NCBI GenBank assembly: GCA_029210545.1
Contig: JARGFV010000097.1
Location: 1 to 9,153 of the forward strand
Direction of reading: 5' to 3'
Length of the DNA stretch: 9,153 bases
Source of the DNA: a bacterium
Lineage (GTDB): Bacteria; BMS3Abin14
Part shown: positions 1 to 8,133 of the stretch, one piece after another
How the letters are laid out: each line of letters starts with the position of its first letter
Position numbering within the stretch: position 1 is the stretch's first letter
The notes under the pieces: generated by a model
The model's input: the letters and a program-made list of their open reading frames with translations, nothing else
Told to the model about the DNA's origin: nothing
Database searches by the model: none
Program-made: the position numbers and the translations under genes

Positions 1-162
1 TCTTCGCTTCACAATTAACAAGACGGAAGCTTCGACGCGACAGCCTTCGCTTCCTTCTGCAATGGCTTGCCGAGCCGAGTGTCCGTCTTCGCTTCACAAT
101 TAACAAGACGGAAGCTTCGACGCGACAGCCTTCGCTTCCTTCTGCAATGGCTTGCCGAGCCG
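1..162. repeat. 85-bp tandem duplication beside tRNA-Arg
   Basis: Bases 1-77 and 86-162 are identical, giving a tandem repeat with an 85-bp period. The copies diverge after the shared CGAGCCG. The first copy starts at the window edge, so more copies may lie to the left. The unit is rich in CTTCG/CGAAG words and holds no open gene that I recognise. A degenerate relative may lie in the kinase-mscL gap, where the word CAGCCTTCGC (126-135) recurs at 8363-8372. Confidence 0.9.
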
Positions 163-188
163 TAGCTTCCGTCAGGAAGCGAAGGCTG
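107..188. repeat. Interleaved inverted repeats at the tRNA 3' end
   Basis: There are two perfect inverted repeats. Arm A (GACGGAAGCT, 107-116) pairs with A' (164-173). Arm B (CAGCCTTCGCTTCCT, 126-140) pairs with B' (174-188). The order is A-B-A'-B', so the hairpins exclude each other or form a pseudoknot. B' overlaps the complement of the tRNA CCA end (187-189), so a minus-strand tRNA primary transcript would run straight into this structure. It may act in 3' trailer processing or termination, but there is no clear U-tract. The role is inference; the repeats are directly visible. Confidence 0.8.
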
Positions 189-263
189 GTACCCCCGACA
201 GGATTCGAACCTGTGACCCCCAGATTAGGAATCTGGTGCTCTATCCTGCTGAGCTACGAGGGC
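187..263 (-). tRNA. tRNA-Arg (anticodon CCT)
   Basis: Read on the minus strand, this is a full cloverleaf: acceptor GCCCTCG paired with CGGGGGT (one G-U and one U-G pair), D-arm GCTC/GAGC, anticodon stem CCAGA/TCTGG around loop TTCCTAA, and T-arm ACAGG/CCTGT around TTCGAAT. The discriminator base is A and CCA is encoded in the DNA (187-189). Anticodon CCT reads the arginine codon AGG. The length is 77 nt with CCA. A strong promoter lies just upstream and no other tRNA is adjacent. Confidence 0.97.
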
Positions 264-4872: not shown

Positions 4873-4918
4873 TGGCAGTCAGCAGCTTCCTTAAGGTTCT
4901 ATTTTGATTTTCCGGGGC

Positions 4919-4947
4919 ATCGTAACTTTTTGGCGTGAAGGTTGCAA
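4919..4947 (-). promoter_or_regulatory. Candidate promoter of the surE block
   Basis: On the minus strand TTGCAA (4942-4947) and TACGAT (4919-4924) are separated by 17 nt, 46 nt before the surE ATG. Each hexamer matches consensus at four of six positions. The position fits, but the match is modest. Confidence 0.35.
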
Positions 4948-4958
4948 CGGAAACTGGA

Positions 4959-4986
4959 GTGAAACGTGAAACGGGAGAGCAGTGAA
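4959..4986. repeat. Heptamer repeat tract (GTGAAAC type)
   Basis: Two identical GTGAAAC units (4959, 4966) are followed by GGGAGAG and CAGTGAA in the same 7-nt phase, just upstream of the candidate surE promoter. Confidence 0.6.
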
Positions 4987-5145
4987 TCGCTATAACAGGA
5001 TCTTTGGGATAGAAACGGGGATTTTCATGGCAAGAGACAATGAAGCTACATCTCTTCATCATTTCAACGATCATCGTAATCTGAAGGTGCCGCGAGAGGC
5101 AGCAGGAAGGATTTTATTTGGAGCAGGTAAAAAGGTTTACAAACA
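4987..5145. other. Spacer upstream of surE, no clear gene
   Basis: I see no supported gene. On the plus strand an ATG at 5040 opens a 14-codon hydrophobic stretch (MKLHLFIISTIIVI) that ends at TGA 5082-5084. The same frame then stays open into the palindromic element. This could be a decayed gene start or chance; there is no good SD. Confidence 0.4.
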
Positions 5146-5302
5146 TGATAGAGTCGCAAAAAGTCCAATCCGGGACTTTTCGCTCCACGGAAAGGGAAAA
5201 GCGTCGTTTTCCCTTTCCTTACAAATCAATGACTTACAGTGGGAGTCATTGATTTGGGCGCCCCGCGCGGGGCGCGTTGATGGACTTTTTGCGAGTCCAT
5301 CA
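5146..5302. repeat. Five-hairpin palindromic element (copy 1)
   Basis: This 157-bp block is bounded by imperfect terminal inverted repeats, TGATAGAGTCGCAAAAAGTC against TGATGGACTCGCAAAAAGTC. Five hairpins lie in a row: AAAAGTCC/GGACTTTT (5159-5180); a perfect 12-bp stem GGAAAGGGAAAA (5189-5200/5207-5218); a perfect 13-bp stem CAAATCAATGACT (5222-5234/5244-5256); an 18-bp palindrome GCGCCCCGC-GCGGGGCGC (5258-5275); and a perfect 9-bp stem TGATGGACT (5278-5286/5294-5302). The right end includes the stop codon of the phosphoesterase gene. No transposase is present. A MITE-like mobile repeat, a 3'-end RNA structure, or both are possible. Confidence 0.85.
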
Positions 5303-6151
5303 CCTGTTCGTTATCCCAAAACTATCGATCATCTCCGCCTTGTCGCTCCAGACTTCCACCGTGAGGTTCTGCTCTTCGTCGAAGAAAAGAACGCAGAAGT
5401 GATAAGCCTTGAGGAACAGTTCACTGAATTCGCTGGATTCGGCCTGGTTTCTGAGGGGCGCACCACCGCCGCCGGTGACGATGTACCGGATTCCGTTGAC
5501 CGTTGACCTCTCGTAATCGTGGTCGTGCCCGTTGAAAACGGCATCCACCCCGTACTGCTCGAAAAGGGGGACCAGGTCGTCAGCGATCCCCTTCTCGTCA
5601 GAACGGTGTTTCCCGGTGCTGAACAGGGGGTAGTGGAACGTCACGATGGTGTAGTCTGTCGCGGAAACACTCGACGAGAGCTCGCTTTCAAGCCACTGGT
5701 ACTGAGTGGAGCCGGCAGCGAGGCTCGATTCGGTGTCCAGAACGACGAAGTGAAACCCCTCGATGTCATCTACCGGGTACCACTTCTCGTTACCGGGGAG
5801 TGTAAAATTGTCGAAATAACGCTGGGCTTCCTCCTCGTGGTTGCCTAATGCGGGGTAGACGGGGGTCCCGGATGGCAGCTCTGAAATAATGCGGTTGAAG
5901 ATGATCCAGTCACCGGCCACCCGGCCGTCGTCCACCAGGTCGCCGGTGTGAAAGACGGCGGCAGGCTCGATGGTCGCCATCCCCTCCACAAGTGTCAGGT
6001 GGACATCGTGACCGGTGCGGCTGTCTCCGTAGACCACGACTCCACCGGCCAGGTGGCCGGGGAGCACGGACCAGTCCACGGATGCACTGCACCCGCCGGC
6101 CGCGACTGCGAGCACAAGAGCCACTGCAAAGAAAACCGTGTATTTCCTCAT
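5300..6151 (-). CDS. Calcineurin-like metallophosphoesterase lipoprotein
   Basis: This 283-aa secreted or membrane-anchored phosphoesterase starts with MRKYTVFFAVALVLAVAAGG followed by Cys21, a lipoprotein signal. Dimetal-site motifs appear in family order: GDSR (about 43-46), GDLVDDG (about 70-76), GNHE (about 103-106), FHYPLFS (about 173-179), and GHDHDYERS (about 209-217), which resembles the GHxHxYER end motif of purple-acid-phosphatase relatives. It probably hydrolyses phosphoesters outside the cytoplasm; the substrate is unknown. I chose the ATG at 6151 because AAGGA lies 7 nt upstream and it gives a clean signal peptide. An in-frame ATG at 6166 adds MKEMA but lies in the flanking repeat and lacks an SD. 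The TGA stop lies inside the terminal repeat of element copy 1, and copy 2 touches the start region, so the gene is tightly bracketed by repeats. Confidence 0.9.
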   Translation of the reverse strand: MRKYTVFFAVALVLAVAAGGCSASVDWSVLPGHLAGGVVVYGDSRTGHDVHLTLVEGMATIEPAAVFHTGDLVDDGRVAGDWIIFNRIISELPSGTPVYPALGNHEEEAQRYFDNFTLPGNEKWYPVDDIEGFHFVVLDTESSLAAGSTQYQWLESELSSSVSATDYTIVTFHYPLFSTGKHRSDEKGIADDLVPLFEQYGVDAVFNGHDHDYERSTVNGIRYIVTGGGGAPLRNQAESSEFSELFLKAYHFCVLFFDEEQNLTVEVWSDKAEMIDSFGITNR

Positions 6152-6163
6152 CGCCATTTCCTT

Positions 6164-6273
6164 CATCAGGGTCGCAAAAGTCCGTGCGGGCCTTTTGCTT
6201 AACGGGAACCGAAAAGCGTGGTTTCCGGTTCCCTCACGGGGGCGCGTTGATGGACCATCTCTGTGTCCATCAA
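6164..6273. repeat. Related palindromic element (copy 2)
   Basis: This element has the same orientation and end signatures as copy 1 but is about 110 bp. It opens with GTCGCAAAAGTCC followed by GGCCTTTTGC (imperfect hairpin). A GGGAACCG/CGGTTCCC hairpin comes next (6204-6211/6226-6233). It keeps the shared GGGGCGCGTTGATGGAC junction and ends with a perfect 9-bp hairpin TTGATGGAC/GTCCATCAA (6247-6255/6265-6273). The 12- and 13-bp stems and the GC palindrome of copy 1 are replaced or missing. Any phosphoesterase promoter must lie within or upstream of it. Confidence 0.75.
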
Positions 6274-6461
6274 CTGAAACAGCCTCGCGTTAACGGAAAT
6301 GTTACCACAAAGACAGGTCGTCTGGGTTGATGGTTTTGAAACCCCATCGGTTCTGAACCGGTAAAATAGTTCGCCACTTTTTCCTTAAAATCCTGCTAAA
6401 ATTGCAGGGGAAGCAATCGCCTCTGGAGAAGGAGGAGGTGATAAAATTGCAGAGTTGTAAC
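6274..6461. other. Hairpin-rich spacer with a plus-strand Shine-Dalgarno
   Basis: No protein gene is evident. Small inverted repeats include CGGTT-ctg-AACCG (about 6348-6360) and CCTGC/GCAGG (6392-6396/6404-6408). TAAAATTGCAG occurs twice (6397, 6443). On the plus strand a 10-nt match to the full anti-Shine-Dalgarno, AGGAGGTGAT (6433-6442), stands 4 nt before a TTG codon. An extended -10-like TGcTAAAAT is at 6394-6402 with no good -35. Confidence 0.5.
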
Positions 6462-6518
6462 CTTGATGGACCCGCAAAAAGTCCCGGATTGGACTTTTTG
6501 CGACTCTATCAAGTTTGA
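6447..6518 (+). other. Candidate small ORF or truncated gene start
   Basis: TTG at 6447 follows AGGAGGTGAT at near-ideal spacing and opens 23 codons (MQSCNLDGPAKSPGLDFLRL, then YQV) ending at TGA 6516-6518. Most of the codons lie in the palindromic element copy 3, so the peptide is probably not conserved. A lost gene cut off by insertion of the element is an equally good reading. It is followed by a plus-strand terminator. Confidence 0.2.
6462..6513. repeat. Single-hairpin element (copy 3, inverted)
   Basis: This is a 52-nt hairpin. CGCAAAAAGTCC (6473-6484) and GGACTTTTTGCG (6491-6502) pair perfectly around CGGATT, with outer arms CTTGAT/ATCAAG. Bases 6477-6511 are the exact reverse complement of 5146-5180 (35 nt). 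With one mismatch the match extends to 41 nt (5140-5180 against 6477-6517). Together these arms enclose the phosphoesterase gene. Confidence 0.9.
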
Positions 6519-6531
6519 TGTCTGAAGCCTG

Positions 6532-6574
6532 CCCTTCGATCATGCTGACTGCGTGATCGAAGGGTTTTGGTTTT
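6532..6574 (+). terminator. Intrinsic terminator on the plus strand
   Basis: A perfect 11-bp stem CCCTTCGATCA (6532-6542) / TGATCGAAGGG (6554-6564) is followed directly by TTTTGGTTTT (6565-6574) on the plus strand. On the minus strand, where the kinase ends 34 nt away, the stem lacks a U-tract, though it could still stabilise the kinase mRNA 3' end. Confidence 0.65.
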
Positions 6575-6597
6575 CAGGCGCTCGCTACACTCAGGTT

Positions 6598-8133
6598 TCA
6601 CCGCTGATCAAACTCCACCTCTATCTCCTTCCTCTCCCCCGATCCAAGCTCCAGGATATACTTCCTCGATCCCAGGTCCGGATGCCTGACCTCCAGGTTG
6701 TAAAGGCCGGGGTTGATATCGAAGGCCCTGACCTGCCAGGCGCCTCCTCCGGAGATCGCCAACTCCTCGCCGTTCAGCAAGACCGTTCCCCCCGATGGGC
6801 TGACAATGGTCAGTTGGGCTTTGCGTAGGGCAACCGGCATTATATCGTTGAGGGCGGACCGCTCACCCATCCAGCCTGCCAGAAACCATCCCCCCGCGAC
6901 AAGCAGGATAAGGAGCCCAACGATCCACAATGCTTTTAAGGAAGATCTGCTCTCCTTGTCATCACCGACGTAGTGGCCTGCATGCTCTTCCGCTTTGGAA
7001 CCGCCTCCGGGAGTCGCCTTGAGGCTCAAGGGAACATCCGCGGTACCGGCTTTCTGGTGTGTGTGCGGCACGGACACGACATCTTCAACCGGCTCGAGGG
7101 GCGGCAGATCAGCCGGCGGGTCCAGTTCGAGGGGATGGACAGCGCCTTTCTCAACACCCGTCGACGGCGCCGGTGCGACGGCCGCTTCAGGCAGCTGAAC
7201 CGCAACGAAGGGAGCAGTGACATCCTCCGGGCCCGCATCGGGAGACAATGAAGCGGTGCTCTCGGGGTCACGGTGCCTTTCGACAAGCCTTGTTACAGCT
7301 GTTTTCCGGGGGATCCTTTCCAGGGGCAGTGACATCTCGAGGACCGTAGACAGCTCTCCCATGGAGCTGAAGCGGGTTTCCGGGCTTTTGTTGAGGCACT
7401 TCATGACGATCTGCGAGATCGCGTCAGGGACATGGGGGGCGAACTCGCCCGGAGACGGAGGATCGGTGTGCAGGACGTTCTGGATGAGGGCGATGTGGTT
7501 GGCTCCCGAAAACGGCTTCTTCCCGGTAAGCATCTCGTAAAAGACGGCGCCGAGGCTGAAGATGTCCGCAGCCGACCCGAGCTGGTTCCCGGTGATCTGC
7601 TCGGGGGCCATGTAGGCCGGGGTCCCCAGGATCTGCCCTGCCACGGTCAGTTCCCCTGCATCGGGAACCGCCACGATCCCGAAGTCCATGAGCTTTACCT
7701 CGCCGTTTCCTGAAAGCATGACGTTGGCGGGCTTGACGTCCCGGTGGATCATGCCCCGGGAGTGGGCGAAAGAGAGGGCATCGCAGACCTCGATGACGAC
7801 CAGGGACGCCTCCACGACCTCCAGGCGCCCCAGACTTCCCAGGACATCCCTGAGCTCGGCCCCGTCGACGAACTCCATGGCGATATAGGCCTTTTCACCT
7901 TCTTCCCACAGGTCGTAGATAGTGACTATATTGGGGTGTTCGAGGGAAGCGGCCGCGCGGGCCTCGAGCCGGAACCTTTCGAGAGCGTTGGGGTCGGTCC
8001 GGAACCTCGCCAGGTCCAGTTCCTTGATCGCCACGTTCCTGTTGAGGGACTCCTGGACAGCCCTGAACACGACGGCCATGCCCCCCCGGCCGATCTCCTC
8101 GATGACTGTGTAGTTGCCGATTTTCCGGACCAT
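6598..8133 (-). CDS. PknB-like membrane Ser/Thr protein kinase
   Basis: This is a 511-aa Hanks-type kinase. The Gly-rich loop GRGGMAVVF is at 15-23, with ATP-lysine Lys37 (AIKE) and Glu57 as its likely helix-C partner. The catalytic loop HRDVKPAN is at 130-137 (Asp132), DFG at 150-152 and APE at 176-178. The kinase domain ends near 270. A Pro/Ala/Glu-rich linker (about 285-395) leads to one membrane span (about 401-420) and an outer domain (about 437-509) whose SPSGGTVLLNGEEL...PGLYNLEVRHP pattern resembles a PEGA carbohydrate-binding-type domain. It probably senses an envelope or wall signal and phosphorylates cytoplasmic targets; those targets are unknown. The ATG at 8133 has AGGGG about 5 nt upstream. 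No PP2C phosphatase or FHA gene is in the window. Confidence 0.95.
   Translation of the reverse strand: MVRKIGNYTVIEEIGRGGMAVVFRAVQESLNRNVAIKELDLARFRTDPNALERFRLEARAAASLEHPNIVTIYDLWEEGEKAYIAMEFVDGAELRDVLGSLGRLEVVEASLVVIEVCDALSFAHSRGMIHRDVKPANVMLSGNGEVKLMDFGIVAVPDAGELTVAGQILGTPAYMAPEQITGNQLGSAADIFSLGAVFYEMLTGKKPFSGANHIALIQNVLHTDPPSPGEFAPHVPDAISQIVMKCLNKSPETRFSSMGELSTVLEMSLPLERIPRKTAVTRLVERHRDPESTASLSPDAGPEDVTAPFVAVQLPEAAVAPAPSTGVEKGAVHPLELDPPADLPPLEPVEDVVSVPHTHQKAGTADVPLSLKATPGGGSKAEEHAGHYVGDDKESRSSLKALWIVGLLILLVAGGWFLAGWMGERSALNDIMPVALRKAQLTIVSPSGGTVLLNGEELAISGGGAWQVRAFDINPGLYNLEVRHPDLGSRKYILELGSGERKEIEVEFDQR

Follow-up and report, generated by a model that had tools for sequence, protein, structure and literature searches.

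A high-copy MITE family with IS1182-like ends at the borders of a phosphoesterase gene

Why should a single phosphoesterase gene lie between the arms of a long, perfect inverted repeat? The 9,153-nucleotide stretch of bacterial DNA analysed here (the window) presents such an arrangement, for which the original prediction, made from the sequence, offered two readings: a non-autonomous mobile cassette, or a gene whose two mRNA ends had been taken over by one repeat family. The description underlying both readings is accurate. The two arms (Table 1) are exact reverse complements over 35 nt and, with mismatches allowed, extend to 44 nt at 95% identity (5140-5183 and 6474-6517). When the window was shuffled 50 times with its dinucleotide content preserved, exact inverted repeats reached at most 19 nt. 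One calcineurin-type phosphoesterase reading frame is encoded between them on the minus strand, and a screen of open reading frames and domains found no transposase in the window. One repeat copy had been placed at the stop codon of the gene and another at its start, and both placements are correct: the TGA stop consists of a host T (5302) followed by the terminal GA of the element (5301-5300), and the earliest ATG that could serve as start lies 3 bp downstream of where the second copy begins.

The window contains three copies of one MITE, two on the plus strand and one on the minus strand, the limits given for copy 2 being approximate. The segment 6462-6513 holds the third, a 46-bp copy, so that the 35-bp repeat consists of the left ends of copies 1 and 3 in opposite orientation. 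Copy 1 is delimited by the pairing of its terminal inverted repeats and by relatives in the same genome that match it at 93-100% identity over most or all of its length. Copy 2 is related to units of ~82 bp that form tandem arrays elsewhere in the genome. Copy 3 belongs to a size class of 45-46 bp with seven members in the 1.12-Mb sample, and a deletion between the two GGACTTTT repeats of copy 1 would yield its form but for one mismatch; the 46-bp core form was probably born by deletion between these repeats, which lie near both ends. At least two 46-bp copies have perfect target-site duplications, so the core itself seems mobile.

Table 1. Coordinates of the MITE copies, the inverted-repeat arms and the enclosed gene in the window
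Feature	Position	Strand	Description
MITE copy 1, full-length form	5147..5301	+	155 bp between terminal bases GATAG...CCATC
Copy 1 including the usual flanking T/A	5146-5302	+	157 bp
Internal hairpins of copy 1	H1 5156-5183, H2 5189-5218, H3 5223-5255, H4 5258-5275	+	DNA folding
Right terminal hairpin H5, including right terminal inverted repeat TGATGGACTTTTTGCGAGTCCATCA	5278..5302	+	Sequence; 10-pair stem
MITE copy 2, variant	6169..6273	+	H1, a different H2 (GGGAACCG...CGGTTCCC) and H5; without H3 and most of H4
MITE copy 3, 46-bp core form	6465..6510	-	Left end, 6 nt, right end
Left arm of 35-bp inverted repeat	5146..5180	+	Left terminal inverted repeat and start of hairpin 1 of copy 1
Right arm of 35-bp inverted repeat	6477..6511	-	Left end of copy 3
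Lipoprotein-like calcineurin-type phosphoesterase	5300..6166	-	Pfam PF00149 (Metallophos), E 1.3e-17

Searching the element segments against their own genome, as had been proposed, returned dozens of near-identical relatives. Comparison of the 157-bp copy with this 2.7-Mb draft genome gave 373 first-look candidates, and each of the 40 that were scored matches at 93-100% identity. Pairing inward-facing ends in a sample of 1.12 Mb of genome stretches (41%) gave 55 elements, mainly of 45-46, 154-155 and 166-189 bp, with terminal inverted repeats GATAGAGTCGCAAAAAGTC and GATGGACTCGCAAAAAGTC. Some part of the family occurs at 111 places in the sample, which extrapolates to ~270 for the genome; this is probably an underestimate, because long contigs supplied most of the sampled stretches and contig ends often fall within an element. 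The family makes up more than 1% of the DNA sampled. The variant form represented by copy 2 is often found in tandem units of ~82 bp. At L054:13805-14368 (G000:C4) lies a greatly expanded MITE of 564 bp that has the ends typical of the family, about four internal units in tandem, and AAAGTT/AAAGAT as its flanks. At L049:18939-19219 (G000:C8), a full MITE is followed, across AATTTT, by the left end of another element, GACAGGGTCGTAAAAAGTC, an arrangement that suggests insertion beside or into an older copy.

The element is present in 11 of the 12 genomes searched from its phylum, and the same search found it in none of 19 more distant genomes. The single phylum genome with no element, the complete genome G001 from the same bacterial family, either lost it or was never invaded. 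An exact 27-mer from the right end (H5) also occurs in two deltaproteobacterial MAGs. A plasmid or phage vehicle was considered and rejected: plasmids and phages gave no blastn match to the 157-bp copy, and viral contigs contained no exact 23-mer from it. A literature search with the end sequence returned only unrelated papers.

The proposal that the repeats are non-autonomous mobile elements is confirmed by their inverted ends together with target-site duplications elsewhere in the genome. Perfect 6-bp duplications flank 21 of the 55 elements, where shuffling the right flanks gives an expectation of 1.3, and the flanks of another 12 differ by one base (6.5 from the same shuffling). The 33 copies with at most one mismatch yield, position by position, the target consensus AANNTT. 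Comparison within a genus supplies an empty site: an element of 153 bp in G004 (L161:10456-10608) has ATCGTT on both sides, and the orthologous sequence in G009 runs on unbroken, with ATCGAT present once. At L161:16343-16475, another candidate for an empty site, the comparison was not clean. The family is a MITE family by every feature of that class that was checked: short length (under ~600 bp), no transposase gene, terminal inverted repeats, target-site duplications, high copy number, presence/absence variation, and ends shared with insertion sequences. In the window, the flanks of copy 3, AACCTT/AAGTTT, each fit AANNTT, with two mismatches to each other; those of copy 1, AAACAT/ACCTGT, are not a duplication, and copy 2 has no recognisable one. 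As none of the three has a perfect duplication, we infer their insertion from the behaviour of the family.

DDE transposases encoded in genomes of the bacterial family were screened for ends matching those of the MITE. This yielded one locus, L086 in G000, where an IS1182-like element begins AACCTT|GATGGACCCGCAATTAGTC and ends GACGGCATCGCAAAAAGT (read inwards). For the transposase fragments of G009 and G007 the ends are GACGGACTCGCAAAAAGT and GATGGCTTCGCAAAAAGT, with 17/18 and 16/18 identity to the right end of the MITE. IS1182-like elements, whether from this lineage or from others, agree with the MITE at 14-17 of 18 end positions. The left flanks of these elements, AACCTT, AATCTT and AATCTT, fit the MITE target. 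Ends of the same kind occur on IS1182-like elements of other genomes, drawn from the phylum to which the deltaproteobacterial MAG with locus L095 belongs. One of these elements, L105, retains both ends and is flanked by ATTGTT as a perfect 6-bp duplication. The best model for the transposase is NF033551 (IS1182), with E 1.6e-47 over positions 33-485 of 488 for L105 and E 1.6e-33 for G000; the scores, 162.5 and 116.3, lie below the NCBIfam IS1182 cut-off of 270, and "IS1182-like" is therefore as far as the evidence goes.

No active source of transposase was found in the host. The only long copy in G000 has no region of the last catalytic residues, jumping from KETC to KATGVNILRA, and the copies in G007 and G009 are fragments. 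Given the internal deletion of the G000 copy, an intact transposase must have been elsewhere, or must have been lost. The two deltaproteobacterial MAGs with the exact right end were searched as well, and no IS1182-like transposase was found in them. At L086:1258-2820 (G000:C1), the reading frame of the IS1182-like transposase is open, and AACCTT separates its left end from an adjoining full MITE.

Judged by ends and target site, the MITE has likely been mobilised in trans by an IS1182-like transposase; both the mover and the timing of movement are what we infer. After binding ends of ~18 bp (left, GATAGAGTCGCAAAAAGT; right, GATGGACTCGCAAAAAGT), the DDE transposase would cut out or copy the element and place it at an AANNTT site, where 6 bp become duplicated. 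The three copies of the window would have arrived in separate events around a phosphoesterase gene already resident there, two of them facing each other by chance and so creating the 35-bp inverted repeat. We regard this account as a whole, with one MITE family, mobilisation by an IS1182-like transposase and three independent landings around a resident gene, as very probable.

Orthologs of the phosphoesterase, at 49-69% identity, occur in 6 of 11 genomes of the bacterial family. An orthologous locus with unrelated flanks, named in the original prediction as an outcome that would tell against it, exists in G003, where the order MscL-kinase-phosphoesterase-SurE is that of the window and no element lies beside the phosphoesterase. 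The gene is also next to SurE in G008, where no element was found in a region of which ~110 upstream bases (L058:2578-2687) read N. A DNA search for the empty site in these two genomes returned mostly repeat matches and no flanks. In G010, a diverged left module lies a few bases upstream of the phosphoesterase. The G003 protein ends with the same residues as that of the window, TNR, followed by TGA; insertion at the 3' end would have left the protein length unchanged because the terminal GA of the element restored the TGA stop. By the gene calls of a simple program based on codon scores, the stop codon of a neighboring gene is completed by the GA of the element at 6 of the 55 elements. From these comparisons of gene content and order, we take the phosphoesterase to be a resident gene that was already there before the elements arrived, and not cargo.

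The 157-bp form folds, as DNA, into several hairpins at -50.5 kcal/mol (z -9.1). Among 17 copies from about ten genomes, eight base pairs have changes on both sides, a number reached in none of 500 shuffles and far from reached with shifted partners; double-change counts can be inflated by shared ancestry, and this count is among the measures least affected. Because compensatory change has preserved the internal hairpins, pairing probably matters, whether for transposition, for protection, or for tolerance of the element within transcripts. A bolder proposal is that the interior is selected for pairing and the element works as folded DNA or RNA, perhaps as a cruciform recognised by an IS1182-like transposase, from a family of which one member is known to act on inverted repeats, or perhaps as an mRNA-border element, and that it persists for this reason at a few hundred extrapolated copies despite broken transposases. 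A selected fold would explain how one MITE persists across almost a whole phylum-level lineage in which only broken transposase copies were found, yet we consider the proposal rather unlikely.

Still less probable is the view that a role for the host at gene borders, such as termination, mRNA processing or nucleoid organisation, is the main reason why the elements are kept, with mobility secondary. The helices kept paired by compensatory changes across genera would suit it, as would the stop codons completed by the element and the largely intergenic location of the copies (43 of 54 classifiable copies, though ~85% of the sequence is coding). Yet the gaps occupied show no preference. By the same gene calls, neighboring genes are tandem, divergent and convergent in 30, 8 and 5 cases, which matches what the intergenic bases offer, and a preference for one kind of gene border was therefore rejected. 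The region 4880-6600 contains no sigma-70-like promoter, and its terminator-like sites, 4 against 2.2 in shuffles, are in no clear excess. At the gathering score, a tRNA was the sole Rfam match in the window, and the repeats had none. The orthologous gene has no element beside it in G003, and none was found in the readable flanks of its G008 counterpart. The original prediction had set its proposals against random scatter with no association to gene borders; scatter describes the data in that no border type is preferred, and fails to in that the elements are mainly intergenic.

The idea that one repeat family took over both mRNA ends of the gene finds no support in the same orientation classes, which match background, or in the number of bracketed genes, which is not in excess. 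Whether other genes sit between such pairs was a question raised at the outset: the 1.12-Mb sample contains three genes that have an element in the gap on each side, where 5.1 are expected by chance (P(>=obs)=0.905). Enclosure of the gene in the window is a chance outcome of this repeat density. We accordingly give scarcely any credence to 5146-6511 as a composite non-autonomous cassette in which two inverted MITE ends mobilise the phosphoesterase. The geometry is suitable, with two inward-facing, inverted ends 1364 bp apart and no transposase between them, and both outer ends are in principle open to recognition by an IS1182-like transposase, but the outer flanks of the pair, AAACAT/AAGTTT, share no duplication, and the gene occupies its place between the kinase and SurE in G003 with no elements, besides having orthologs in 6 of 11 genomes of the bacterial family. 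On synteny, outer flanks and bracketing statistics, the gene-carrying cassette was rejected.

Movement of REP sequences by RAYT is not known to leave target duplications. The multi-hairpin, mosaic, intergenic and tandem-array forms of the repeats might recall REP/BIME-type palindromes spread by an IS200/IS605-like (RAYT) Y1 transposase, and G000 encodes a RAYT-like Y1 protein of 243 aa at a distance of ~840 bp from one of the copies. Such an origin was rejected as extremely improbable, given abundant 6-bp duplications in the family, ends that match a DDE insertion sequence, and unrelated GTAACCCCTGTGTCAGAG repeats bordering the RAYT gene. That gene (L036:1798-2491, G000:C150), with its own GTAACCCCTGTGTCAGAG-type repeats, represents a second, unrelated repeat system.

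The repeats of the preferred reading, in which an IS1182-like transposase moved copies to either side of a resident gene, form a new MITE family of high copy number whose internal hairpins are conserved, and belong to a kind of element already known. BOX elements of pneumococcus and BIME/REP sequences consist of modular hairpin units, varying in number, between conserved ends. The modular hairpins are a likeness to the present family; the difference is that the ends here are those of a DDE insertion sequence and create target duplications. The closest precedent is MITEPye1 of Paracoccus yeei, described in the available text as a gene-less, intergenic element of 159 bp with 18-bp IS1182-like ends, direct repeats and a strong predicted fold, for which movement by IS1182-family transposases was proposed (PMC11578231). 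According to the same text, MITEPye1 makes 4-bp duplications, in contrast to 6 bp at AANNTT here, and has 1-3 copies per chromosome, in contrast to the extrapolated ~270; that text mentions no mosaic or tandem-array forms, unlike the family here. What is new relative to MITEPye1 is the 6-bp AANNTT site, the copy number, the mosaic forms, and the spread over 11 of 12 phylum genomes.

IS1272 of staphylococci, a member of the IS1182 family for which tandem duplications of left-end sequence have been reported, shares with the present elements a broad transposase family and a hairpin-rich biology, but its insertion takes the place of an inverted repeat at the target and creates no duplication, whereas the elements here carry ordinary 6-bp duplications (PMC5678879). 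The Chunjie MITE of Geobacter uraniireducens, compared through its description in a review, is likewise high-copy, gene-less and mainly intergenic, with inverted ends, direct repeats and many partial copies, and differs in its length of 178-235 bp (PMC10969869). Multicopy palindromic families of Geobacter bemidjiensis also occupy many intergenic regions, a likeness by description alone in the part of the report available (PMC2996986).

A puzzling gene-flanking inverted repeat thereby receives a named mechanism. IS1182-like ends can found MITE families of very high copy number, ~270 by extrapolation, where the precedent in the literature has 1-3 copies. The compensatory hairpin changes offer a concrete case in which to test whether the folding of MITEs is important. 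Because genome assemblies often break inside the element, recognising it helps annotation. At the contig end, window positions 1-190 hold a tandem repeat with an 85-bp period (two identical 77-nt blocks), adjoined by a tRNA-Arg gene (anticodon CCT) at 187-263 on the minus strand.
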